A DNA stretch of 64,000 bases from an uncultured Eubacterium sp. (GTDB lineage Bacteria > Bacillota > Clostridia > Oscillospirales > Acutalibacteraceae). The first letter of the stretch is position 1, and each line of letters begins with the position of its first letter. The notes beneath the pieces were generated by a model. The model was not told the origin of the DNA and made no database searches. It saw nothing but the letters and a program-made list of their open reading frames with translations. This document shows positions 3,007 to 64,000 of this stretch, in pieces. A program made the position numbers and the translations under genes. The stretch is taken from assembly GCA_905233545.1 (NCBI GenBank), contig CAJOEV010000008.1:61385-125384 (forward strand). Direction: 5' to 3'.

Positions 3007-3665
3007 CAGATGTTCTCCTTAACGATATTAATAACTGCCTGAATAGATTCTTCAAGATTCAGCTCGGAGGTATCAAGAAGAACTGATTCCTCGCTCGGTT
3101 TAAGCGGAGCAATTTCTCTGTGAGAATCCTGATAATCGCGCTGATTAACATCTGCAAGAACATCCTCATACATAACGCTCTCGCCCTTTTCAATCAACTC
3201 ATCATATCTTCTTTTAGCTCTGCATTCGGGAGAAGCAAAAAGGAATATTTTAACATCGGCATTCGGAAGAACAACGGTTGCAATATCTCTTCCGTCCATA
3301 ATTACATTGTTCTTTTTTGCAATATCTCTCTGAAGGTCAAGAAGAAATTCGCGAACCTTCGGAATTGCGGAAACAGCGCTTGCGCCCATAGAAATTTCAG
3401 GTGTTCTTATTAATGATGAAACATCCTCACCGTCGAGAAAAACAGCCTGAACACCATTAATATACTTAAGTTCAACTTCAATATCGCTGAGCATATTAAT
3501 AATCTTATCAGTGTCGCCTAAAATGCCCTTCCTCTGTGCTGAAAGCGCAACAGTTCTGTAGAGCGCACCCGTGTCAACATAGATGTAGCCGAGCTCCTTT
3601 GCAGCAGCTTTTGCAACTGTGCTTTTTCCTGCGCCTGCAGGTCCGTCGATAGCAATGTTTATCAT
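3006..3665 (-). CDS. cmk: (d)CMP kinase
   Basis: IAIDGPAGAGKSTVAKAAAKELGYIYVDTGALYR and MDGRDIATVVLPNADVKIFL are typical of cytidylate kinase. Confidence 0.95.
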   Translation of the reverse strand: MINIAIDGPAGAGKSTVAKAAAKELGYIYVDTGALYRTVALSAQRKGILGDTDKIINMLSDIEVELKYINGVQAVFLDGEDVSSLIRTPEISMGASAVSAIPKVREFLLDLQRDIAKKNNVIMDGRDIATVVLPNADVKIFLFASPECRAKRRYDELIEKGESVMYEDVLADVNQRDYQDSHREIAPLKPSEESVLLDTSELNLEESIQAVINIVKENI

Positions 3666-50058: not shown

Positions 50059-51267
50059 TTACGCAACTTCTATGAACGAACCTGCCTTCTGAATTTCCTC
50101 TTGACTAAAGTCGTCGAGCAGGTGTGTATAAGATACCGTTGTCGCATATTTTGAATGACCCATTATTTTCATAATGAATACTGGAGATAGTTTCTTTTCA
50201 AAGCATCTCGTAGCAAATGTATGTCTAAATGCGTGCGGATGAACCTTCTTAAATGGTGTGTATGGTCTCCCCTCTTGTTCTGCTTTATATCGTTCTATCT
50301 CATTGATGTTTTCGATGATTTGTTGTAGGTCACGCTGAAGCACATACCTGGTCGCTGGTGACCCCATAGTTGTGGTGAAAACTAAGTTGCCTAACTCTTC
50401 AGGTTGCCTCCATCTTTCACCTAATTCTTTTCTTCTTTTATCCTGTTTCTTCTTCCAAATTCTGAGTAATTCCTCAGTGCCGTCAAAGAATGGTATTTTT
50501 CTGTATGAGTTTATTGTCTTTGGTGTGGTAAACTCTAATATCTTTTTCCCGTTAATATATGCGGAAGTCAAAGACCTCTTAATTTCAATATACTTATCTT
50601 GGAAATTTATATCTTCCCATTGCAACCCAGCAAACTCTCCTGCACGCATACCAGTCTGAAGTAATATTTGATATGCCTCATAATAATAACTCCCTTGAGC
50701 GAACTCTAAAAACATTTTTTGTTCGTCTTGCGTTAACACGACTCGCTCCTCTTTTGGTGTGTTGAGAGACTGAACCGTAACATCAATACACGGGTTAAAA
50801 TATATCATTTGGTTAGCAATAGCAGAATTAAAACATTCTCTCAAAGACGATACTGCCTCACGAACTAATCGGATGGAATACCCATGCTCATTTACTAATT
50901 CATTAGCAGCACTCTGTATATCCATTTGGGTGATATCATATAACCGCTTCTCTCCAATAATAGCACAGAATGTGTTTTTAATTTTTCTTCGATAACTTAC
51001 CCTATTAACCTCACCCTTCAACACTGGTGATTTTGCGATTTCAAACCACTCATTAAACCATTCGTTAAGAGTAATATTAGGGTTTTTACCATACTCGTAT
51101 CTTGCTATGCGTTCCTTTTCTTCTAAAAATTCTTTCTTAAGTTGTGTGAGTTTGCTGTTATAAAGATTAATTGTTCTTCCGTTAATAACAGCTCGTGCGT
51201 TGTATCTACCATCCCTCCTCTGACTAATACCTTTACCAAGTTCTTTGCCGTTTAAATCTTTTCCCAT
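50059..51267 (-). CDS. int: Tyrosine site-specific integrase (Tn916 Int-like)
   Basis: RTGMRAGEFAGLQWEDI-like catalytic region, HPHAFRHTFATRCFEK, MGHSKYATTVSYTH. Confidence 0.94.
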   Translation of the reverse strand: MGKDLNGKELGKGISQRRDGRYNARAVINGRTINLYNSKLTQLKKEFLEEKERIARYEYGKNPNITLNEWFNEWFEIAKSPVLKGEVNRVSYRRKIKNTFCAIIGEKRLYDITQMDIQSAANELVNEHGYSIRLVREAVSSLRECFNSAIANQMIYFNPCIDVTVQSLNTPKEERVVLTQDEQKMFLEFAQGSYYYEAYQILLQTGMRAGEFAGLQWEDINFQDKYIEIKRSLTSAYINGKKILEFTTPKTINSYRKIPFFDGTEELLRIWKKKQDKRRKELGERWRQPEELGNLVFTTTMGSPATRYVLQRDLQQIIENINEIERYKAEQEGRPYTPFKKVHPHAFRHTFATRCFEKKLSPVFIMKIMGHSKYATTVSYTHLLDDFSQEEIQKAGSFIEVA

Positions 51268-51370
51268 AATGTAAACTCCTTATCAAAGTCTATATTACGG
51301 TATCAATTACATTATACATCATTTTTATGAAATTGCAATATATATTGATAAAATATTTATAAGTTATATA

Positions 51371-51568
51371 TTATATACAGATTTGATGTTTTGCACATCT
51401 ATCAAGAAAGTTCTCAAATGCCTTACGGTTTACATAGAGTTTGTTCCCTACCCTAACAGTAAATGTACTGTCTTTTCTCTTTAAGATTTCTCTTGCCTTG
51501 GTTTCTCCCCAGCCTGTAAGTTCTATGACCTCAGCCAGACTCCAAAGTAATTTCTCTTGTGTATTCAT
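51371..51568 (-). CDS. Excisionase-like helix-turn-helix protein
   Basis: LWSLAEVIELTGWGETKAREILKRKDSTFTVRVGNKLYVNRKAFENFLD resembles Tn916 Xis; adjacent to int. Confidence 0.82.
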   Translation of the reverse strand: MNTQEKLLWSLAEVIELTGWGETKAREILKRKDSTFTVRVGNKLYVNRKAFENFLDRCAKHQICI

Positions 51569-51632
51569 CTTATCATCTCCTATAGATTATTACCCACAAA
51601 TAACGAGTATCTGTGGGTAATTCTATTATACA

Positions 51633-52070
51633 TTATTTTACGCCTGTGCTACCAAAGCCGCCAGCACCTCTTTGTGTTCTATCCATCTCAAAAACTTCGC
51701 AAAGAGAGCAATCGAGATATGGCGTGATAACAATTTGTGCCATACGGTCACCCTGTTGAATAATCTTATATTCGTCAGACTCATTACGCATTGCTACCAT
51801 AATCTCACCGCGATAGTCAGAGTCGATAACGCCAACACAGTTTGCAGGTCTTAACCCCTGTTTTACGGCAAGACCACTACGAGCATATATAGCTCCGAAA
51901 TATCCATTAGGTATCTCCATAACTATACCCGTTGGGATTATTCTGGTCTCACCAGCTTCGATTACTATATCCTCGCTTGAATATAAATCGTATCCAGCCG
52001 CATACTCTGAACCCCTTGTAGGTATCTTTGCGTGCGCTGATATTCTCATAATGTTAACTTCTGGTTTCAT
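51633..52070 (-). CDS. dut: dUTP diphosphatase
   Basis: RGSEYAAGYDLYSSED; GAIYARSGLAVKQGL; GVIDSDYRGEI; RGAGGFGSTG. ATG at 52070 with GGGAGATGAT upstream. Confidence 0.95.
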   Translation of the reverse strand: MKPEVNIMRISAHAKIPTRGSEYAAGYDLYSSEDIVIEAGETRIIPTGIVMEIPNGYFGAIYARSGLAVKQGLRPANCVGVIDSDYRGEIMVAMRNESDEYKIIQQGDRMAQIVITPYLDCSLCEVFEMDRTQRGAGGFGSTGVK

Positions 52071-52086
52071 ATATTTATCATCTCCC

Positions 52087-52386
52087 TTATTTTGAATAGA
52101 CTCGTTTCTTGTACGCTTCGATTTGTTTTGCAATATACATGTCTGAGAGGTCGGGGTATTTTGCTTTAATCCTATCAAAGTGCCCCTTGTCTCTACACAT
52201 ATACCATTGATACGGTGTCATTTCTAAACACCAATGGCAAGAGCCACACATACCATCCATTTTCCCGAAGTCAGAACAGTTGATAAATTTTCTTACAGGC
52301 GGAAGATACTCCTGATTACACTGTTCAATCGTCTCTACGGTGGCTATATCTGATTTTAACTTAATCATATCTTTCTCCGTTATCAA
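52087..52386 (-). CDS. Phage hypothetical protein with clustered cysteines
   Basis: CGSCHWCLEMTPYQWYMCRDKG; in a co-directional tight gene array. Confidence 0.65.
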   Translation of the reverse strand: MITEKDMIKLKSDIATVETIEQCNQEYLPPVRKFINCSDFGKMDGMCGSCHWCLEMTPYQWYMCRDKGHFDRIKAKYPDLSDMYIAKQIEAYKKRVYSK

Positions 52387-52404
52387 ATCGTCGTTTTATT
52401 ATCA

Positions 52405-52524
52405 TTAATGTCGCGGTCTCATATTATTTATATCATAATATGTATAGTATATTAGGGAAAATATGAAGACCGCACAGAAGACACACACAGTGGCACAACT
52501 AATACAAATCATATCATCGGTCAT
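52405..52524 (-). CDS. Possible 39-aa membrane mini-protein (not in ORF track)
   Basis: MTDDMICISCATVCVFCAVFIFSLIYYTYYDINNMRPRH*, overlapping end of 52514..52879. Confidence 0.35.
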   Translation of the reverse strand: MTDDMICISCATVCVFCAVFIFSLIYYTYYDINNMRPRH

Positions 52525-52879
52525 TTTTATCACCCTCAGACAGACCTATTGTATTAATTGTAAACTCTGTCATTGTCTTTGTATCTTCATACCATAAACC
52601 ATCTTCTTTTGTTCCTCCCCAGTCAATCACCCCTGAGACGGTTAGGAGAAATCTATTGTTTTCAGGTTCTTCCTCTATGATAGGTTTATCTCCGTTTGTA
52701 TAACCGATACAGATTTCATCATAGGTGACATTATCACCTCGATAGACAATTGGTAATGATTGTTTGATATTATTCAATGCATTGATAATTGCCTCTTTTG
52801 TATAAGTAACCCCATTTCCATCTGGCGTATTATAGTAAAACGGTATAGTAAGTTTTATTTCGATGTCATTAGTTCTCAT
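52514..52879 (-). CDS. Phage hypothetical protein
   Basis: 121-aa ORF in operon context. Confidence 0.6.
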   Translation of the reverse strand: MRTNDIEIKLTIPFYYNTPDGNGVTYTKEAIINALNNIKQSLPIVYRGDNVTYDEICIGYTNGDKPIIEEEPENNRFLLTVSGVIDWGGTKEDGLWYEDTKTMTEFTINTIGLSEGDKNDR

Positions 52880-53222
52880 TTCGTTTTCTCATCTCCTTAT
52901 TACAGAGTTCTAAAAAGCTGAGCCAATCTTCCTTATCTATATCCATACCCCACGAGCCAATGCCTTTATCAACATCAATACCATATCTTGTTATGTCCTG
53001 TATAAAACAATCGAGCGTCTTGTCGTCGATGTATGGTAAAAGGGGCGTAATATATCTGATAACAGAACTTGGCATATATGTCATTCTACCCAGCGCATAT
53101 CGTACAGCGCAGTTAAGAATTAAACCGAACTCAGAGTTAATCTCTACTGGTGGTTTATTTACTGATTCAATGTTTGACATACTACACCTCTTTCGCCTCT
53201 TTCTTTGATGATACAATCTCAA
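52869..53222 (-). CDS. Phage hypothetical protein (likely start 53180)
   Basis: MSNIESVNKPPVEINSEFGLILNCAVRYALGRMTYMPSSVIRYITPLLPYIDDKTLDCFIQDI. Confidence 0.65.
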   Translation of the reverse strand: MRLYHQRKRRKRCSMSNIESVNKPPVEINSEFGLILNCAVRYALGRMTYMPSSVIRYITPLLPYIDDKTLDCFIQDITRYGIDVDKGIGSWGMDIDKEDWLSFLELCNKEMRKRNEN

Positions 53223-53757
53223 TTATTTCGTTTACGATTTCGTTGTATCCATCAATAAATCCGTCTTTACAAGAATACTCTACTCCAAAATTGTCGAGCA
53301 TATCTCTGATTTCACAACCTATTTCTCCAGCCTCTTCTTCGGTCTGGAATCTACCATTAGAATTATAAGGCTTAACTCTCGTAAGAAAATAGTTTTTGTT
53401 TGTGAATGATTCAAAAACATCAAATACATAGTTAGCAAAAGTATCGTGTTTGACAGTGTCCTCGCTATTCCCGTCATATATTACTGACAACAATATTGGC
53501 GAGTCGGTTACTATAACATCAACCTTGCCTTTGCAGCGAGATAATCTAAACGATTGCTTACCAAAGATGTAACTCTGGTTTTCAAAAACAGCTTTACTCT
53601 CTTCCCATAATTTGTCTTTTGCAAATTCCGTGGCAAGTTCTGCGTCAATACCATTCATCTTTAACATTGCAAAAACATATGCCGCGCCTGTACTTTTACC
53701 AGCGCCGGGTTCACCAAACAAGTTAACAATAACTGTATCTCTAACCGCATCTCTCAT
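53182..53757 (-). CDS. AAA/P-loop NTPase (phage kinase-like)
   Basis: VIVNLFGEPGAGKSTGAAYVFAML Walker A; VIVTDSPILLSVIY. Confidence 0.78.
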   Translation of the reverse strand: MRDAVRDTVIVNLFGEPGAGKSTGAAYVFAMLKMNGIDAELATEFAKDKLWEESKAVFENQSYIFGKQSFRLSRCKGKVDVIVTDSPILLSVIYDGNSEDTVKHDTFANYVFDVFESFTNKNYFLTRVKPYNSNGRFQTEEEAGEIGCEIRDMLDNFGVEYSCKDGFIDGYNEIVNEIIEIVSSKKEAKEV

Positions 53758-53769
53758 TTAATTTACCTC

Positions 53770-54273
53770 TCAACAAATATTATCATATTCATTACATAAC
53801 CAATCTTTATGACTCAACCCAAATGATTTCTTTGGTAGGTTAACCCATACCGATTTTGGGACATATCGAGTATTAAACAATGTATGTGGAACACGAAAAC
53901 CGCTATGTAATTTGTCATTGTAAAATTTTTCAAACTGTTCTGAGAATTGATTATATAATTCTTCGCGTAATTCATCTTCATTTTCTGCTCTTTGAGATGT
54001 TTGCTTAAATAATTCAAAATCCTCTCTGTCACAATAGAACCATCTTTTATGATATGTGTCATAAATAACACTTTTTACATTGTAATATCTTAGTTTATTG
54101 TATATGAGCCAGTTTACTAAACTGTAGAAAGCAGTTTGAGGGAAGACCAATACCCAAGTTATTGGATAATCTGTTGAACAATCAACGCCACCCCAATCAA
54201 ATCTTTCGCTCAACACGATTAGCTCACTTGTGATAAGATACATTACCAACATTCCCAATAAGAAGCTCTTCAT
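53770..54273 (-). CDS. Phage hypothetical, N-terminal TM segment
   Basis: 167-aa ORF, hydrophobic N-terminus. Confidence 0.6.
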   Translation of the reverse strand: MKSFLLGMLVMYLITSELIVLSERFDWGGVDCSTDYPITWVLVFPQTAFYSLVNWLIYNKLRYYNVKSVIYDTYHKRWFYCDREDFELFKQTSQRAENEDELREELYNQFSEQFEKFYNDKLHSGFRVPHTLFNTRYVPKSVWVNLPKKSFGLSHKDWLCNEYDNIC

Positions 54274-54284
54274 ATAATCACCTT

Positions 54285-54446
54285 CTAATCTATATCTCTT
54301 TCTATGGTTAACTTGAAATGTGCCTTCGGTTTATAATATGTCTTATTCACTCTCATCTCTCGCCATTGCATAATCCCAACGACGAGGATTAAGAATGAAA
54401 AATTACCGAGCAACATTTCAGTCGTAATAGTATTTAAAAAATGCAT
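54285..54446 (-). CDS. 53-aa single-TM small protein (not in ORF track)
   Basis: MHFLNTITTEMLLGNFSFLILVVGIMQWREMRVNKTYYKPKAHFKLTIERDID*; TAATG overlap with upstream gene. Confidence 0.55.
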   Translation of the reverse strand: MHFLNTITTEMLLGNFSFLILVVGIMQWREMRVNKTYYKPKAHFKLTIERDID

Positions 54447-55096
54447 TAGCTCTGTATCACAATCAACCTATACTGGATACCGCTATCTCCCCAGTTTAAG
54501 TTATTAATATCTTCAAAGTCTGTTATCCGCTGGTTAACACATCTAAGGAGAGTTTTGAAGTGGTCATTCCAGCCCATAGGCTCATCCCACTCGTGATACT
54601 CATAACACTGTTTTTCCTCTGGTGTTAACTCTGCAAACTCTTCGTGCTCAACTCCGTAAATGTCTTCTATCTCACCAGTTTCAAACAAAACCCATTGGTC
54701 TTTATGTACAAGATGGTGGTAGTCATATCGGTTGTAGTCGACGCACTTCTTAAAATCATTATAGTCGACATAGATTGGCGTTGGATAATAAAATCTATCG
54801 TCGCGCTCCTCCTGTTCTGCTTCTAAAGAGCTTGACCATTCCTTTTTGACTTCGTCAGAGAGGTCTGCGAATTTTATCTCCCAACCAAGTTGACGAAGCT
54901 TATTGTATGATTCACCAAAATATGACCGTGAACCATTCCAATATGTTAACTGCGGCTTATACTCAACCGTTCCGTCATACTGATGTGGTTCTTGCCAACT
55001 ACTACGCTTATCAACCAACTTCGGAACTCGCGGGTCTATGCTAACCCACTTATCTCCGATTTTGGCTTCAGTATAAACAAAATAATCTGCACCCAT
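54446..55096 (-). CDS. Phage hypothetical protein
   Basis: 216-aa ORF in operon context. Confidence 0.65.
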   Translation of the reverse strand: MGADYFVYTEAKIGDKWVSIDPRVPKLVDKRSSWQEPHQYDGTVEYKPQLTYWNGSRSYFGESYNKLRQLGWEIKFADLSDEVKKEWSSSLEAEQEERDDRFYYPTPIYVDYNDFKKCVDYNRYDYHHLVHKDQWVLFETGEIEDIYGVEHEEFAELTPEEKQCYEYHEWDEPMGWNDHFKTLLRCVNQRITDFEDINNLNWGDSGIQYRLIVIQS

Positions 55097-55290
55097 TAGT
55101 TCACTTCCTTTTCCTTAAGCCAGTCAACAATCCTTTTCTTATTACCGTTCTTTTCGAACAGCTTAACTATTGACCTCATTGTATCTTCATCGGTTATATC
55201 ACATAGGATACAATGGGATAGGATAAGAAAGTTAGCAAATTCCTCTTCGTTAAGCCTCTTTACTCTATCGAACTTTGTCATATTATCCAT
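55096..55290 (-). CDS. Phage hypothetical protein
   Basis: 64-aa ORF abutting neighbours. Confidence 0.55.
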   Translation of the reverse strand: MDNMTKFDRVKRLNEEEFANFLILSHCILCDITDEDTMRSIVKLFEKNGNKKRIVDWLKEKEVN

Positions 55291-55305
55291 CCTCCTGATG
55301 TATAA

Positions 55306-55497
55306 TTAGTCATCTGCTACCTTGTGATATAATCCACAGTGGCAGTACCCTGCTTCCTGTTGTTCTCTGAAATCCTTACACATACACTTTGTGTCTGGTG
55401 TTTTTTTGAGTCTGCAAGGGCAGTAATTGTTATTTGCTTTTAATTCCTTTTTGAACTCATTTACGAATTCTTTGTCTGGATTTAACTCTATCCTCAT
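55306..55497 (-). CDS. Ferredoxin-thioredoxin reductase catalytic-domain-like protein
   Basis: YCPC...KCMCKDFREQQEAGYCHCGLYHK: CxC/CxC/CHC arrangement. Confidence 0.7.
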   Translation of the reverse strand: MRIELNPDKEFVNEFKKELKANNNYCPCRLKKTPDTKCMCKDFREQQEAGYCHCGLYHKVADD

Positions 55498-55975
55498 TTA
55501 GATTATATCCTTTCGCATACTGGTTATCGCTTGCTAATTTAACACCGAGAAGTGTGTCAAGATGAGGCGTTTGCCCCGGAACATATCTTCCATACTTTAC
55601 AATGATGTTGCCATACATATTGAACACCTTTTCAAATGCGGCAGCTTCTTGCTCGGTGTACCCTGTATATATAACTATCTCGTCTTTACAGCTCTTAATC
55701 CTGAGCTTATTGATTAATAGCAGTAAGTCTTCAAGACTATCAAGCGGTTCAAGCCCAGCACATACTATTGCTCGAGTGATACTGTTCTTTAAATATCGTT
55801 CAACTATACTATCTATAGAAACCTCGATATCTGGTGCGGTTGCAAGTGCGCTATTTTGACACACTTGCTGACCGCATTCTTTTTCGCATTTAAACGAACA
55901 GTTTGGAAATTGCAGAACCATACTCGGCTTTTTATAGTTGACGAAATCTTCGTCTATAATTCCTTTGATTTTCAT
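55457..55975 (-). CDS. nrdG: Anaerobic RNR activating protein-like radical SAM/4Fe-4S protein
   Basis: LQFPNCSFKCEKECGQQVCQ; CAGLEPLDSLEDLLLLI; ATGA overlap with the end of nrdD exon 2. Confidence 0.82.
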   Translation of the reverse strand: MKIKGIIDEDFVNYKKPSMVLQFPNCSFKCEKECGQQVCQNSALATAPDIEVSIDSIVERYLKNSITRAIVCAGLEPLDSLEDLLLLINKLRIKSCKDEIVIYTGYTEQEAAAFEKVFNMYGNIIVKYGRYVPGQTPHLDTLLGVKLASDNQYAKGYNLNEDRVKSRQRIRK

Positions 55976-56069
55976 CGCATTATCCCCTCGTCCTGTAAAA
56001 CATTCATCCAGCGTCTCTTATCGAACTCTTTCTTTCGGATATTCTGGTAGGAACTTGTCGGTGTGTAAA
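55972..56069 (-). CDS. nrdD: nrdD exon 2 (C-terminus of anaerobic RNR)
   Basis: Encodes ...YTPTSSYQNIRKKEFDKRRWMNVLQDEGIMR*; continues NrdD after RVVG. Exon1+exon2 = 1926 nt = 642 codons including stop. Confidence 0.85.
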
Positions 56070-57150
56070 CTTTATTACCGCTCGTTTCCGAGTATTTTAT
56101 TAAGAACATATTGCTTGATTTCCTCTTTTCGCACACTATCAAGTGTATAATATTGCTCCGCAAGCGGATTTGATTTTATGGCATTTAATCCAAAGTAATC
56201 CTCGAAACAATACCTACACCAGACAGCCTCTTCAATTGTTTTCCATTCCTTGGTGTAGTACCTTTTATCGTGGTGATAAAAATCGACTTTATAAGTTCTA
56301 CCAGCCTTATTATAAACTACACCTCTAATTCCGATTTGGTTATCTATCCTCGTTGCTCTTTGGTTATCAATGTTTTCCTGCCTTGTTACAAGACGGAGAT
56401 TATTTCTTCTGTTGTTTAGACTATTTCCATCAATGTGGTCGACCTCAAGACCAACTTTACTGTCGTTTATTATTAAGTCGTGTAGGTATATTGCAGCTCC
56501 TTTCTTAAACGAACCTGTAATTACATAATACTTCTGTCGTTTCTTTACTACACGCCATACAAACTTTTTCACTACATCGTAATCTTCTGAATCAATGTAA
56601 AAACTGATTACTTGATTATTGCTGTTAATATTGCATACCGCATATTCACTATATGATACCCAAGAATTTGTTTCTGTGGCTATATTTGAATGATTACCGA
56701 TATTAGAACATATTACACACCTCTTTGGTGGTTGTGTTCTTAAATTCCGAAGTTCGGACGGTAGAATCGCGCCACAATTCAAGCATTTAGTTAACACATA
56801 TTTATCAGGTCGTGATGGAATTTTTAGTCCAATTTTTGTCCAATCGTTATCACAACAGTAATTTCTTATTACCTCTCTATTACCAAATCTTTGTCCTATA
56901 TAATTCATAGCAATTCTGTCCTCTCATATTTTCATATTACGGAATAGACTATACAATTATCTACATCGTAGATATCCCTTGGTAGTCGTTGGGGCTAACT
57001 TTCGTCGCCTGCGGATTACCCAATCCTTCATACTATTACCGGTTTCCCAAAGGTGATGAAGGCTCTAAGGGCTTCCCCGCATATTCGGGATTTCTTATTT
57101 TAGGTCGCGTTACCTTATCACTAAGGCATTGGGCAATTCACACCAAGTTT
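56070..57150 (-). other. Group I self-splicing intron in nrdD
   Basis: 5' splice after U (GGGU|AAAC), 3' splice after G (AAAG|UUUAC). P7-like pairing R CCAACGACTA / S TATAGTCTATT; Q-like AATCCGCAG. Contains HNH ORF. Confidence 0.85.
56075..56908 (-). CDS. Intron-encoded HNH endonuclease with AP2-like domain
   Basis: VDHIDGNSLNNRRNNLRLVTRQENIDNQR HNH motif; Zn-binding CLNCG...CVIC; GIRGVVYNKAGRTYKVDF AP2-like. Confidence 0.92.
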   Translation of the reverse strand: MNYIGQRFGNREVIRNYCCDNDWTKIGLKIPSRPDKYVLTKCLNCGAILPSELRNLRTQPPKRCVICSNIGNHSNIATETNSWVSYSEYAVCNINSNNQVISFYIDSEDYDVVKKFVWRVVKKRQKYYVITGSFKKGAAIYLHDLIINDSKVGLEVDHIDGNSLNNRRNNLRLVTRQENIDNQRATRIDNQIGIRGVVYNKAGRTYKVDFYHHDKRYYTKEWKTIEEAVWCRYCFEDYFGLNAIKSNPLAEQYYTLDSVRKEEIKQYVLNKILGNER

Positions 57151-58978
57151 ACCCTACGACTCTCGCATATGTATCTGCTATTGGCTCGCCACACACAGGA
57201 CACTTAGGTTCACTTATAAATGCGTGCTTATGTTTACATACGCTAATCTTTGTTGTAAAAGCAAAGTAGATAACACCTTGCGATGCTACATAATTGAGCA
57301 TATCCCAAGCAGTATCTTCATTCGGGAACCTATTTTCGATGTTGATGTGGGCAATACAACCACCGCCACACTTCTTATCAAACAGAGAACCAAGTCTACA
57401 CTTCTCTTGGATAGTACATTTCTCCATAAGCGGTATCCACTGGTTAGAGTAGATGAAGAATTTATTCTGCTCAAACAAGAGATTATCAGCCTGACAAATT
57501 ACACCAGCGCAGTTTTCAGCGGGTATCATTTCAAGGTTAAATGTAAAGTCGCACTCGAAGTTATCCTTTACATCATTGATTGTGTCAAGGATTTGAGTTG
57601 CAAAATTGATAGCTTCGTCAGAATAGCTCTTGCAACCAAGTTCGTCTGTATCAATAAGACCAAATAAGTCCATTACCTCATACATTCCGATACCACCAAT
57701 TGTGCAGAACTGTTTGTCAAGTTCAACAGCACCGTCCTGATAATTAGGTAATAACCCCTTTTCGATATTGCGCTTAATGATATGTCTCATAGCAGTTAAT
57801 GCTTTACAGTCAAGCAGGACTCTGTCTCTTAAAATCTTAAGATACTTAGCCTTACTTAACCCACTTTCGTAAGCAATTCGAACAAGGTTGATTGTGCTTA
57901 CTCTGCAAGAACCTACCGATAGTGCTGTACCACCAATTGAGTTAATGAATGCATCAAGTTTTTTAGTATCAGAGAGCAGTCTGCAGCAGTTTGAAAGGAC
58001 TCCTACATTGTCGCTTACAAAGAAATTACTGTCAGACCAACGAACATTATGGTCAGAGCACCAGCGAGCGAACTCTTCGTCTGCAAATTTACCATTCTGG
58101 TAGAGTAAGCTATAAGTAAGAACAGGATATGTGAACATATTTTGTTCTCTAATCTCACTGACTACTTCCATAAATACCTTTTGGAGTTTGAGAAGGTCTT
58201 CTATATGGTCAATGGCAAGGGTTCCGTCGGGAAATTCAACTCCGCCGAATAAAGACTCTAAATATGGTCTGTCAAAGATTGAAACATTTGTAAAACTACT
58301 CTGGTCTATGCGGAGAAATGGCTGATTAAGACGATATATGAGCTTCTGAAACTGCTGACGAAGGTAATAATCCTCATCTTTCATATAATATCCATTCTCG
58401 CAGTCTAATTTCCAAAAATACCAAGCCCATATCAGCACATTGGGCATACCCACGGCTCCTGATTGACGGTTAGATAAGAAGGAGACAAACTCGATAACAT
58501 CATCAAAATATGTAGTCAAGTGCTTAGGAGGCTTATTATTGTAGTTGTTTAAGAAGAACAAGCCCTCGGTGGCAAGTCTCGTAAAATCATTAGCCCAACA
58601 ATATGGGAAGAAGCTTGATGTATGGCTATCATTGAGGTAAAAACCCCTGCTAAACTCCTGCTCAAGCCATTGGTTTGCTGTTCTTAAGCCGAACATCTTC
58701 TTGATTTCTCTATGTATTTTGTTGAGAGCAAACAGTTTGTCCTCACTCTTACCTTTTTCAGTCATAAAACTCCGAATATCCTTATGGTTTACATTAGCAT
58801 TTGGGTCAATACTGGTGTCGGCAATAGTGTCTTTAACGACAAAGTTCTCAATAAACTCCGAAAAATCTAACTGTGACGGGTGTAATCCATTGATGTATTC
58901 GAAATCTTCCCCGTATTTTTCTTTTAACGCATCGAGCTTACGCTCGAAGTCTTTAGATAACTTTAACTGTATCTCCAT
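57151..58978 (-). CDS. nrdD: Anaerobic ribonucleoside-triphosphate reductase, exon 1
   Basis: YFAFTTKISVCKHKHAFISEPKCPVCGEPIADTYARVVG: NrdD C-terminal zinc site and glycyl-radical motif, then immediate TAA in the intron. Confidence 0.93.
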
Positions 58979-58988
58979 TTATGTCTCC

Positions 58989-59192
58989 TTACTGATTATT
59001 TGTCCAATCTACCGCTTCTTTGAACTCCATACGAGTGTTGTTATGAAATAAAACGGGTACAGTATCAATTCCAAGCCTCAACATCTCTTCAACATCGTTA
59101 ACTTCGGTATATTTAATGCCTTTCGAGTCGAGTTTTGTCTTTAATACTTTGCATTTTGGGCATCCGGTTGAATATAAAATCGTATCACCCAT
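58989..59192 (-). CDS. Glutaredoxin-like protein
   Basis: ILYSTGCPKCKVLKTKLDSKGIKYTEVND; VPVLF. Confidence 0.85.
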   Translation of the reverse strand: MGDTILYSTGCPKCKVLKTKLDSKGIKYTEVNDVEEMLRLGIDTVPVLFHNNTRMEFKEAVDWTNNQ

Positions 59193-59197
59193 AACCG

Positions 59198-59758
59198 TTA
59201 CTCCTTTCTTGCGATATCGCATACAGCTTCATAGATTTCTACCCAGTTTTTAACTCTAATGAAACCATATTTTGACTCGTCATAAGATTTATTGTGACTT
59301 GAATCAACAAGTATACCCATATATTCACCACCCTCTAAATTATGAGGTGCATCATCAATCAAAACATCACCTTTTACCATTTGTTTCTTAGACGCTATAA
59401 TAATTTCCTTAAAAGATATAAAAGGAAAGTATTTTTGAACGAATTTTATCTTAAGTGGTATCGTATCTGGGTGTGCAGATGTCAAAAGGTATACTTTATG
59501 ACCGTCATCCTTGAGTTGTTTGAGGTATTTTTGGGAGTCTTTTAACGGTTCGAGCGACTCCCAAAGCTCCCTTGTATGTAATGGTGAAAACACCTGAGTT
59601 CTTGACAACCCGTCGAAGAAATCTTCAATATTCCAATGGGTTATATCCTCTGGTTTTACATTGGTTCCATACTTTTTATTTACCGCAGCAACCCAAGGTG
59701 TGTGTAAGTCTTCTAAAACATTATCTACATCAACAAGTATCGTTAGAGACCTACTCAT
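59198..59758 (-). CDS. 5'(3')-deoxyribonucleotidase-like HAD phosphatase
   Basis: LTILVDVDNVLEDL; LLTSAHPDT; GDVLIDDAPHNLE. Confidence 0.85.
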   Translation of the reverse strand: MSRSLTILVDVDNVLEDLHTPWVAAVNKKYGTNVKPEDITHWNIEDFFDGLSRTQVFSPLHTRELWESLEPLKDSQKYLKQLKDDGHKVYLLTSAHPDTIPLKIKFVQKYFPFISFKEIIIASKKQMVKGDVLIDDAPHNLEGGEYMGILVDSSHNKSYDESKYGFIRVKNWVEIYEAVCDIARKE

Positions 59759-60284
59759 AGAGGCTTTCCTCTACAAAATCATCAACTTTTTGCCTGAGTT
59801 CAAGCAATGTTGAGTCATTTTTGATGTATATATCAGCACCAAAATCATCGAGTGCCGTTTCGGACGGGTGTCTTAGCTGCTCCTCGGTCAGCGCACTCTC
59901 AAAATTAGGTCTTTCCACCCTTAAATGAATAGCGTCAAACCCCGCCTCGATTATTTTCGTTATCTCATTTGGGAATCTGCAATCAGGAATGATGACATAC
60001 TCCCAATTATCATTAAAATACTTGAGTAGCATTGCTACAAAATCAACCCAGAGTGACGGATTTTGCTTTCGGATTACATCTGTTCCTACATATTGGAGCA
60101 AATGTCTTCCTTTCTCGTCCTTTTTGCCATCCCAACCAAAATAATTTGTACAAATCCATTTCAGCAGGTCAGCATAGTGCGTTACAAGCACACTATGCTT
60201 ATCGGCAATAAGTTTCTCTCGTATCATAGAAGCCACAGTATCTTTGCCGTTTTGGGCTTTTCCTGATATTAGTATTACTTTCAT
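59751..60284 (-). CDS. Deoxynucleoside monophosphate kinase-like P-loop protein
   Basis: ILISGKAQNGKDTVASMI; YVIIPDCRFPNEI. Confidence 0.82.
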   Translation of the reverse strand: MKVILISGKAQNGKDTVASMIREKLIADKHSVLVTHYADLLKWICTNYFGWDGKKDEKGRHLLQYVGTDVIRKQNPSLWVDFVAMLLKYFNDNWEYVIIPDCRFPNEITKIIEAGFDAIHLRVERPNFESALTEEQLRHPSETALDDFGADIYIKNDSTLLELRQKVDDFVEESLYE

Positions 60285-60297
60285 ATTGTTCTCCCAA

Positions 60298-60909
60298 TTA
60301 CCAATTTACATCTACATCTATGGTGTCAGAAGCACATCCGCTATCATATATTTTTCCTTTCTTTCCCAACGGTGTGTCAATTACAGTTCCCTTACTTAAT
60401 GATGATGATGCTAAGCATATATAATCGTTCTCATCACAAACATATCCGCTACTATCAACATGTCTTCCAGGTATTCTTAACCCGCCACCAGGTAAAACTC
60501 TCTGACTATACCAAGTCCATTTCCAACCACCCCAACGAAGAACTCCCATTCTTCTAAAATACGAAGCAGAATATTTCTCGGGGCTTCCACTATCTTTCTT
60601 TTCACTCTTTTTAGTGGTAGTCTTTGCTTTCTTCTTTTTCTTACTTTTCTTTTTAGTTGTGGACTGTGTGGTTTTTTGCGTAGTCGACTTTGTAGTACTC
60701 ACCACCTGTGTTGTAGTGGTAGTAGTTGTTGTGGTAGTAGTCGGCTGCGTAGTTACAACTGTTGTGGACTCTGTAGTAGTAACAGTTGGTTTTTCCTCAT
60801 CTCTTGTGTATTGACCGTTAATATTCACCAGAATCAATACAAGTGCAGCGCATATCACTACGATACTAATTGTACTTAATATATTTTCAGCCGTTCGGTT
60901 GATAAGCAT
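60298..60909 (-). CDS. Membrane-anchored protein with Thr-rich linker and C-terminal 3D domain
   Basis: N-terminal TM, poly-Thr linker, Lys-rich segment, then PGRHVDSSGYVCDENDYICLASS...GKKGKIYDSGCASDTIDVDVNW. Confidence 0.75.
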   Translation of the reverse strand: MLINRTAENILSTISIVVICAALVLILVNINGQYTRDEEKPTVTTTESTTVVTTQPTTTTTTTTTTTQVVSTTKSTTQKTTQSTTKKKSKKKKKAKTTTKKSEKKDSGSPEKYSASYFRRMGVLRWGGWKWTWYSQRVLPGGGLRIPGRHVDSSGYVCDENDYICLASSSLSKGTVIDTPLGKKGKIYDSGCASDTIDVDVNW

Positions 60910-60916
60910 CGCCTCC

Positions 60917-61102
60917 TTAATCTATTACAGGAGACACCTTACACTCTTCTATGATTTCTTCCATGCAATTACAACACAAATGTAAATTCAATTTGTCTCC
61001 ATCGTACTTCGTGCCATACCCAAGCGTTTTTACAAACGAAAAGTCTTCTTGGATATCCCACACATCAAATTCTTTTCCGCATTTGTTACAAACAATTGTC
61101 AT
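60917..61102 (-). CDS. Small zinc-ribbon-like protein
   Basis: IVCNKCGKEFDVWD...LHLCCNCMEEII. Confidence 0.6.
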   Translation of the reverse strand: MTIVCNKCGKEFDVWDIQEDFSFVKTLGYGTKYDGDKLNLHLCCNCMEEIIEECKVSPVID

Positions 61103-61168
61103 ACTATGACTCCTTTATGTATTTATTTTTTGTGTATCAAACTAACCTTTTATTCACCATAGAACCGG

Positions 61169-64000
61169 TTAATACACCTTTCCATACCCTGTTAGTTCGA
61201 ACCATTCCCCAGTTCGGGTATATGATTGACAATAAATAATATCGTCCTTTTTAATTGGGTTCTGGTTGTACAAGCGGTTCCAAACAGTGAATCTGCTCTC
61301 TTTACCGCTTCCTATCGACTTTGTAAATACGGAATAGCCGATTTGTTTGTTGTCTTTTCTTCTATGTATAGGTTTAATATCTGTTACATACAGTTTTCTT
61401 CTATCCTCTGCCCTACCTGAGACATATCCCATATATCCCATTATGTCTACGAAGTTACGAACCTTAATTACATCGCTTAAATCCTGAAAATTAGATGTTT
61501 TTACAAGGTCTTCGACTTCTTCAAGGATAGAATAGACATCGAGAAGTGTATAACTTTTTGCTACGCCACCAGACTTTGTTACCCCGACAGCATATTTTTG
61601 AATTATCGGTTCAAGTGGCGTACCGTCTATCTTCTCTTTGTTAATTTTCTTAGCCTGACCCTTTTTGAACATATCGTAGAACATCTCAGTTATTCTAAGC
61701 AGTTCTCTCTGGTTTCCAAAATCAGAGAAGAAGTCAAGCTTTATCAAATTATCAAGCTGTCTTGTGTCAACACTTGTCTTTTGGTCAAGGTCTATAAGTA
61801 AATCTATAAACCTTTCATAATGATATTGCTTCGCAAGATTGTACAGCTCTTCTGCAACCTTAACGCCCATATATTTGATGGATGATAAGCCTTTTGCTAT
61901 CAGGTTCCTATCTTTATCAAAAGAATAATCACTCTTTGATATTCCCCACTTGGGCATAGTCACCTGAATTCCAACACGATTTGCATATGCCGTTCCGCTA
62001 ATAACATCTCCGTCGTTAGCGGCGTTGTTTAAGAAGGATGTAATAAACTCAATCGGATAATAATACCGATAATAAGCACATAAGTATCCGAGTAAACAAT
62101 ATGCAATTGAGTGATTGTATCCAAATTGATAAGATGCACTGTCCTCAATTATTTGCAGGAACTCTTTTGCTTCATTTTCCGCTTCGTCTCTCGACTTAGA
62201 AGACTTGCTGCAGTATCCCTCGAGAATAGATGGCAAAGCTTTATCAAGCCTATCCTTTTGTTTTCGTCCTATCGCACGCCTTATATTATCAGACTCACTA
62301 CCAGACAATCCACAAATCTGTTGCAAGAACTTGATTGTATCCTCTTGGTAAATCAGATATCCAAGGTTATCTTTAAGCAACTCATCAATAATTTCTGACG
62401 GATTAGAATGCGGTTTTCTCGCTAATAGATTATCTCTGTAAGAAGCACCAGACGGTCTAATACACGCTGTCACAATAGACATATCAAAGATACTTCGCGG
62501 TTTGAATCGCTTAAGGCTATTAAAAGCAAAGTCACCTTCAAATTGGAACACAGCCGTAGGATTTTTTATGATATCGTTCCAAACATTCTCGTCATCCCAA
62601 TCAATTTCGTGCGACTTCGGATACGGGACACCTATATAATTACAGGTATCTCTAATAACCTTAACCGTCTTTAAGTTTAAGAAGTCATACTTAGCGAGAC
62701 CTGTATAGTCGTGGATATTCTCCATATCTAAGAACAGGCAATTATCACCGTCCTTATCAAACATGCCGATATTATCGACTAATGTGATAGGACTGATAAC
62801 CATACCAGCAGCGTGAACTGACTGAGATACCTTTGTACCGTATAAACCGTCGAAGTAGTAGAATAACTCTGGATATTTTTCAGATACAAATTTGTAGTCG
62901 TCTGACTCCATAATCATTTCTTTAACGACTTGCACTGGTTTATTAGAACCTTCAGCCTCGTCCGCGACAGAACTAATCTGTTTCTTAATGTTCTCGATAT
63001 TTTTCAATGACCACGGGTTGTCTTTTAATGTCGGATGCTCTTTTGCCCATTCCTGAGCAAGATGTCTTCCTACATCAGCAATAAGCCCCTTGGTTTTCAT
63101 CGTACCAAAAGCAGCTACTCGACCAGTTTTGTCTTCCCCAAACCTGTTAGTGATATATTCAAATATCATTGGTCTGTCAGACTCAACTACATCGACATCT
63201 ATATCACCGATTTCTTCTCTGTCTTCATTGCAAAATCGTGAGAAAACCGTGTGCCAAGTTTCTGGATTTAAGTCAATGATATCGGTAACATATGCTACTC
63301 TCGAGCCACCTACTGAACCTCTCGCTGTGCCTATTGCCATCCCCTGCGATTTACACCAACAAATGAGCTCGCTCATTGACAACATAAATCCGTCCATATG
63401 CAATTTCTGAAAGACCCTCATCTCTTCATCAATAGCCTCTCTGAACGCCTGCTCTTGCTCGCGAGGAATAACACCAGACTCCAACTTCTGCGAAAACTTT
63501 TCTTCGACCGTCTCGATGAACTTTTGTGAGTCTGCTTCTCTCGACCCATATAAGATGGGATACTTAATTGATGTATCGAGCTCAATCTCTTCGGTCATAT
63601 CATAAAGAAGATTTGTGTTCTCTATCGCTTTTAAGTATTCATCTTCTGGTAGAGCAGCCTGTTCTTTGAACATCTCTACGAGTTCATCATAGGTCTTATA
63701 TGACAAGTCGAAAGCATCTTCGTTTCCGTATGATTTGTGCTTTGAAGATAAAAGCACATCCCTACATTCTGCCTTGTATTTACTCGAACTATGTGTATCA
63801 GTCCCCGCGATTAGAGGTGTCCCTATTTTCTTGTACAATGCCAACAATCGTCTGTTAAACTCAACTTGTTCGGGATAAATGTGTGGCTGAACCTCAAGGA
63901 AATCATACTTTTTAGCGAGTTCCATATATCTTGGATGGGTCTCTGGTAACTTCCATAAAGGCGAAGCCAAACATGCACTTGTAGTAATGATGTTATCTGA
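61169..64000 (-). CDS. dnaE: DnaE-type DNA polymerase III alpha subunit (N-terminus beyond right edge)
   Basis: PHP segment (EVQPHIYPEQVEFNRRLLALYKKIGTPLIAGTDTHSS), GTARGSVGGSRVAYV, IGDIDVDVVESDRP, SVHAAGMVISP. Frame open to base 64000. Confidence 0.93.
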   Translation of the reverse strand, partial: SDNIITTSACLASPLWKLPETHPRYMELAKKYDFLEVQPHIYPEQVEFNRRLLALYKKIGTPLIAGTDTHSSSKYKAECRDVLLSSKHKSYGNEDAFDLSYKTYDELVEMFKEQAALPEDEYLKAIENTNLLYDMTEEIELDTSIKYPILYGSREADSQKFIETVEEKFSQKLESGVIPREQEQAFREAIDEEMRVFQKLHMDGFMLSMSELICWCKSQGMAIGTARGSVGGSRVAYVTDIIDLNPETWHTVFSRFCNEDREEIGDIDVDVVESDRPMIFEYITNRFGEDKTGRVAAFGTMKTKGLIADVGRHLAQEWAKEHPTLKDNPWSLKNIENIKKQISSVADEAEGSNKPVQVVKEMIMESDDYKFVSEKYPELFYYFDGLYGTKVSQSVHAAGMVISPITLVDNIGMFDKDGDNCLFLDMENIHDYTGLAKYDFLNLKTVKVIRDTCNYIGVPYPKSHEIDWDDENVWNDIIKNPTAVFQFEGDFAFNSLKRFKPRSIFDMSIVTACIRPSGASYRDNLLARKPHSNPSEIIDELLKDNLGYLIYQEDTIKFLQQICGLSGSESDNIRRAIGRKQKDRLDKALPSILEGYCSKSSKSRDEAENEAKEFLQIIEDSASYQFGYNHSIAYCLLGYLCAYYRYYYPIEFITSFLNNAANDGDVISGTAYANRVGIQVTMPKWGISKSDYSFDKDRNLIAKGLSSIKYMGVKVAEELYNLAKQYHYERFIDLLIDLDQKTSVDTRQLDNLIKLDFFSDFGNQRELLRITEMFYDMFKKGQAKKINKEKIDGTPLEPIIQKYAVGVTKSGGVAKSYTLLDVYSILEEVEDLVKTSNFQDLSDVIKVRNFVDIMGYMGYVSGRAEDRRKLYVTDIKPIHRRKDNKQIGYSVFTKSIGSGKESRFTVWNRLYNQNPIKKDDIIYCQSYTRTGEWFELTGYGKVY

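Follow-up and report, generated by a model that had tools for sequence, protein, structure and literature searches.

Group I introns are well established in the ribonucleotide reductase (RNR) genes of phages, nrdD included (PMC2988022, PMC3653736), and more than 100 group I introns have been curated in the RNR entries of RNRdb (PMC2795772). Group I introns of phage RNR genes prefer functionally critical sites (PMC2988022), as a preliminary description of the present locus had likewise held for conserved catalytic sites of phage nrd and polymerase genes, and an intron located where only its exact removal restores the enzyme is thought to be protected from deletion (PMC2988022). The nrdD (sunY) gene of T4 carries, like the gene described here, a group I intron with a homing endonuclease (I-TevII), and of 104 genomes of Jug gut phages, 95 have a fragmented nrdD, splicing being evident from metatranscriptomic data (PMC12363816). 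The Jug phages resemble our locus in having group I introns in nrdD, but differ in being huge Bacteroides phages (PMC12363816). The T4 intron lies after about residue 180 (record AF158101), whereas the intron described here follows the codon of Gly609 plus one base; the T4 endonuclease is of the GIY-YIG type instead of HNH, and the T4 intron holds a long insert between the P7 and P3 strands that our intron lacks. The latter is a real but ordinary addition to the known class of mobile group I introns. Among the open-licence literature we found no paper naming an intron beside the glycyl-radical codon, and we claim no priority for this position.

The stretch of DNA analyzed (64,000 nt, hereafter the window) forms the terminal part of contig C8 in a bacterial genome of 2.2 Mb. 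The portion beyond about 50 kb is prophage-like: besides an integrase as prophage marker (51267-50059, minus strand), it contains genes for nucleotide kinases and for a DNA polymerase III alpha-like subunit as well as nrdG and nrdD. The prophage region (50059-64000) runs into the contig end and is thus incomplete in the assembly; a tRNA search of the window returned none.

Exon 1 of nrdD lies at 57151..58978 on the minus strand, as do all window features given below, and comprises 1,828 nt, that is 609 codons plus one base (Pfam NRDD, 9e-77). Its 3' end reads ...GTC GTA GGG|T, the last full codon being that of the radical glycine, Gly609, which aligns with Gly621 of Thermotoga maritima NrdD (4coi), the residue named as the glycyl radical site of that enzyme (PMC4493059). 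A UAA stop spans the junction of exon 1 and the insert (GGG U|AA) and closes the nrdD frame at once. The C-terminus and stop are found in exon 2 (55972..56069, 98 nt), which from the junction on translates as F-YTPTSSYQNIRKKEFDKRRWMNVLQDEGIMR* and whose stop overlaps the start of nrdG (55457..55975; PHROG anaerobic RNR small subunit, 2e-8), the gene of the radical-generating activase partner. Together the exons amount to 1,926 nt, encoding 641 aa plus the stop, and residues 1-631 of the spliced NrdD aligned with 4coi continuously through the junction (E=1e-165). The gene thus shows features of a class III ribonucleotide reductase, the enzyme that makes DNA building blocks without oxygen, namely a radical glycine in a C-terminal loop and an adjoining nrdG. 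All 79 viral nrdD relatives spanning the site are uninterrupted there, and after the glycine the intronless viral relatives read FYTP, FYVP, FLxP or YLxP. Based on these 79 relatives and the alignment to 4coi, the insertion is real and splits the codon next to that of the radical glycine between its first and second bases. The coordinates, frame, junction and exon sum given in the preliminary description were therefore accurate, as was its statement that exon 1 ends right after the glycyl-radical codon; it had also held that intronless homologues failing to continue from RVVG into YTPTSSYQ would speak against an intron, and the homologues clearly do continue across the site. From the in-frame UAA and the loss of the C-terminus in unspliced RNA, it follows that NrdD activity would depend on removal of the intron.

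The insert is assigned as a group I intron (56070..57150; 1,081 nt) that starts with AAA and has its omega-G at 56070, on the grounds of a covariance model match, the empty sites and the relatives with an insert at the same site. The ribozyme core, P3-P8, occupies 56940..57100 and is supported by covariation and by the model match. In P3, UCCC (57087..57090) pairs with GGGA (56978-56975), and three of the four pairs covary; alignment of the core places P4 (UGCGG/CCGCA), P5 (GCCC/GGGU) and P5a (CCUUCAU/AUGAAGG) within 57010..57081, the P6 hairpin (GGC/GCC) at 56993..57009 and the P8 hairpin (AUCUAC/GUAGAU) at 56959..56973. P7 is formed by GACUA (R, 56983..56987) and UAGUC (S, 56951-56947), which is the GACTA/TAGTC pairing proposed in the preliminary description, and is invariant in eight introns; since P7 never varies, it lies outside the covariation test and is neutral for covariation. 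Only CCAA separates GACUA (P7 5') from GGGA (P3 3'), and P7.1/P7.2, the mark of subgroup IA, which includes the T4 nrdD intron, is absent.

The covariance model (R1) was built from seven related introns, some of them close same-site relatives, with the window left out, and it found the core at 57100-56940 with 148.7 bits (E=9e-26, 64 kb searched). The next-best match in the window had an E-value of 0.83, the core was the sole match across the whole 2.2-Mb bacterial genome, and in 300 genomes of the same family the model found no further intron; nor does R1 detect the T4 nrdD intron. In an alignment of eight introns, 97.8% of the cells of the P3-P8 structure were paired, 17 pairs had changed on both sides, and none of 500 shuffles reached the covariation score. 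Shifts of the pairing partners by 1-3 columns reduced pairing to 25-43%, a control that is biased in favor of the structure as this was named from the same eight sequences; the R1 match is free of this bias because the window was excluded from the model. The model match and the 17 covarying pairs bear out the earlier assignment to group I. When 251 nt were simply folded, z was -1.74 and the global fold was uninformative, and BLASTN searches of phage records with the core returned weak partial matches that are leads only.

The preliminary description had suggested checking the assignment by cmscan with Rfam RF00028, and had named the lack of a group I covariance match as grounds for refuting it; the search indeed gave none, either in the window at the gathering threshold or in the region at E<=5. 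The missing match is uninformative, since relatives with the same core were also missed or remained below threshold; nor does agreement with this library model define a group I intron. In L221, an uncultured phage contig from IMG/VR, RF00028 reached 43 bits (E=3e-8) against a threshold of 50, and the model (Rfam release 15) was silent even at E<=1 on L088, L087, L106, L097 and L094 despite their intact cores. The related introns of phiCDIF1296T (L088), of a staphylococcal phage and of an SPbeta-like nrdE2 region went unreported, whereas the T4 nrdD intron, used as positive control, scored 105 bits.

A search with the R/S pattern yielded 31 viral loci, and a search with the 5' splice-site pattern led to L221, while a pattern scan of genome contigs proved too loose, and the loci retained from it included no same-site intron. 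One match to the core pattern, L086, was dropped as its surroundings show no intron. No fewer than four further uncultured phages (L221, L106, L097 and L114; all IMG/VR contigs) carry an intron at the same nrdD base, and these introns share core and splice signals with that of the window. The closest of them, L221, resembles the window in carrying a homologous HNH gene in its intron, unlike L106, L097 and L114, whose introns measure 227-243 nt and have no ORF. The nrdD genes of L097 and L114 are distantly related to that of the window. Additional interruptions were also seen in these genes: the nrdD of L221 (617-4306), a phage contig of rumen type, is apparently split by three group I introns, the last at the site of the window intron, with RF00028 matches at 1429-1653, 1821-2041 and 3220-3456, and on the minus strand of L106 a second frame break lies upstream of the shared site, upstream of GMYEVMDLF, as if caused by another insert.

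The splice signals are shared by all five same-site introns. In the window, the internal guide (57127..57144) offers GCCC (57134-57131) for P1 with GGGU of exon 1 and GGUGUG (57144-57139) for P10 with exon 2. The GGGU/GCCC pairing with a U-G pair at the cut was present in five of five, each intron starts with AAA and ends with AAAG, and a P10 of 6-8 bp between the guide region and the 3' exon is possible in every case. P10 also shows a compensating change, exon 2 and guide reading UACACU and AGUGUA in L097 as compared to UACACC and GGUGUA in L114. The 3' junction of the window reads AAAG|UUUACAC, closing the intron on omega-G, and in each of the five precursors a stop codon straddles the splice site. 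With P1, P10, the U-G pair and omega-G in place, both splice sites had been correctly located in the preliminary description.

Most of the 1,081-nt insert is filled by an ORF for a putative HNH homing endonuclease (56075..56908; 277 aa; Pfam HNH_3, 3e-10; phrog_99, 4e-24); the preliminary description had rightly recognized a group I intron but overlooked this ORF inside it as well as the prophage setting. Comparison of ORF-bearing and ORF-less introns places the gene in the P9 region, and the P9 hairpin CUCG-GAAA-CGAG plus CGG (56078..56092) doubles as the last codons of the ORF. The protein is 52% identical over 271 aa to that encoded in the L221 intron, a homolog that was reached via the splice-site pattern; a single-sequence search of phage records and viral contigs returned no relative, the 300 same-family genomes gave weak relatives only, and a weak match to the HNH homing endonuclease of PDB 1u3e (E=2e-4) covers residues 132-186, outside of which the protein shows no sequence similarity to it. 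The exact core site GTAGGG/TTTTACAC occurs in three intronless relatives (L003, L005 and L034), so that there are plausible targets for homing. Toward the junction, the exons of the window did not become clearly more identical to those of L221 or L106, and co-conversion is thus not visible in these comparisons.

The observed insertion, the homologous empty sites, the covarying core, the splice-site pairings and the same-site relatives with and without an endonuclease are most readily brought together if a mobile group I intron, bearing the gene of an HNH homing endonuclease in its P9 region, is spliced out to restore NrdD, and we consider this explanation very probable. The nrdD precursor RNA would fold into the group I core, guanosine would cut after GGGU in the two-step guanosine pathway, and GGGU would be joined to UUUACAC, restoring the frame and the full-length protein. 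Translation of unspliced RNA would end with Gly609, owing to the UAA that lies across the splice site. The homing enzyme is expected to cut or nick intronless nrdD alleles, with repair copying the intron in. From the sequences we infer that splicing in vivo, endonuclease activity and homing probably all take place. The intron could instead be a dead relic in a prophage pseudogene, with a core that looks right but no longer splices and a host relying on its own NrdD; the host genome does encode an intact nrdD on contig C7, but the core and the pairings at the splice sites are intact, as are both ORFs, and where P9 of the window differs from that of L221 (CUCG-GAAA-CGAG versus UUAG-GAAA-CUAA), the changes compensate so that pairing is preserved, making a relic very improbable. 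It is also quite doubtful that intron removal beside the radical-glycine codon serves as a switch, with the prophage making NrdD cut short at Gly609 for as long as growth or induction conditions do not favor splicing; if true, the oxygen-sensitive enzyme would be made only when useful. That NrdD is instead produced in two assembling pieces, as in Aeh1 nrdA, has precedent in known genes-in-pieces RNRs (PMC3653736), yet exon 2 encodes just 31-32 residues and has no start of its own, and the insert, like those of the ORF-less relatives, has a complete group I core and guide sequences that match, such that a split gene without splicing appears highly unlikely. An intein, of which one was reported in the nrdD of phage c-st (PMC3653736), a group II intron and an assembly error are contradicted by the sequence and next to impossible, as a UAA closes the frame immediately, the group II search gave no match beyond chance (E=3.4) and four independent contigs carry the same insert at the same base.

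A mobile group I intron at this position would be a clear example of an intron whose exact removal alone restores the enzyme. Moreover, the single group I model of Rfam overlooks some introns of a family encountered repeatedly in phages of the rumen and gut, and fragmented phage genes of this kind are therefore likely to be under-annotated. Phages whose nrdD genes are distantly related share this insertion site, some having the endonuclease and others lacking it, and the site could serve as a natural series for homing tests. Related cores are found in the introns of the SPbeta-like nrdE2 (L089) and of phiCDIF1296T (L088), with R1 scores of 55.8 and 116 bits, respectively, but these differ from the window intron in lying in other genes with no same-site homology. 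In L007 (69-3867), and also in L008 and L037, where nrdD is intronless, a DNA polymerase III alpha-like gene is apparently interrupted by a related intron, which scores 110 bits with R1, and within the L007 intron lies a GIY-YIG-like ORF (971-1687).
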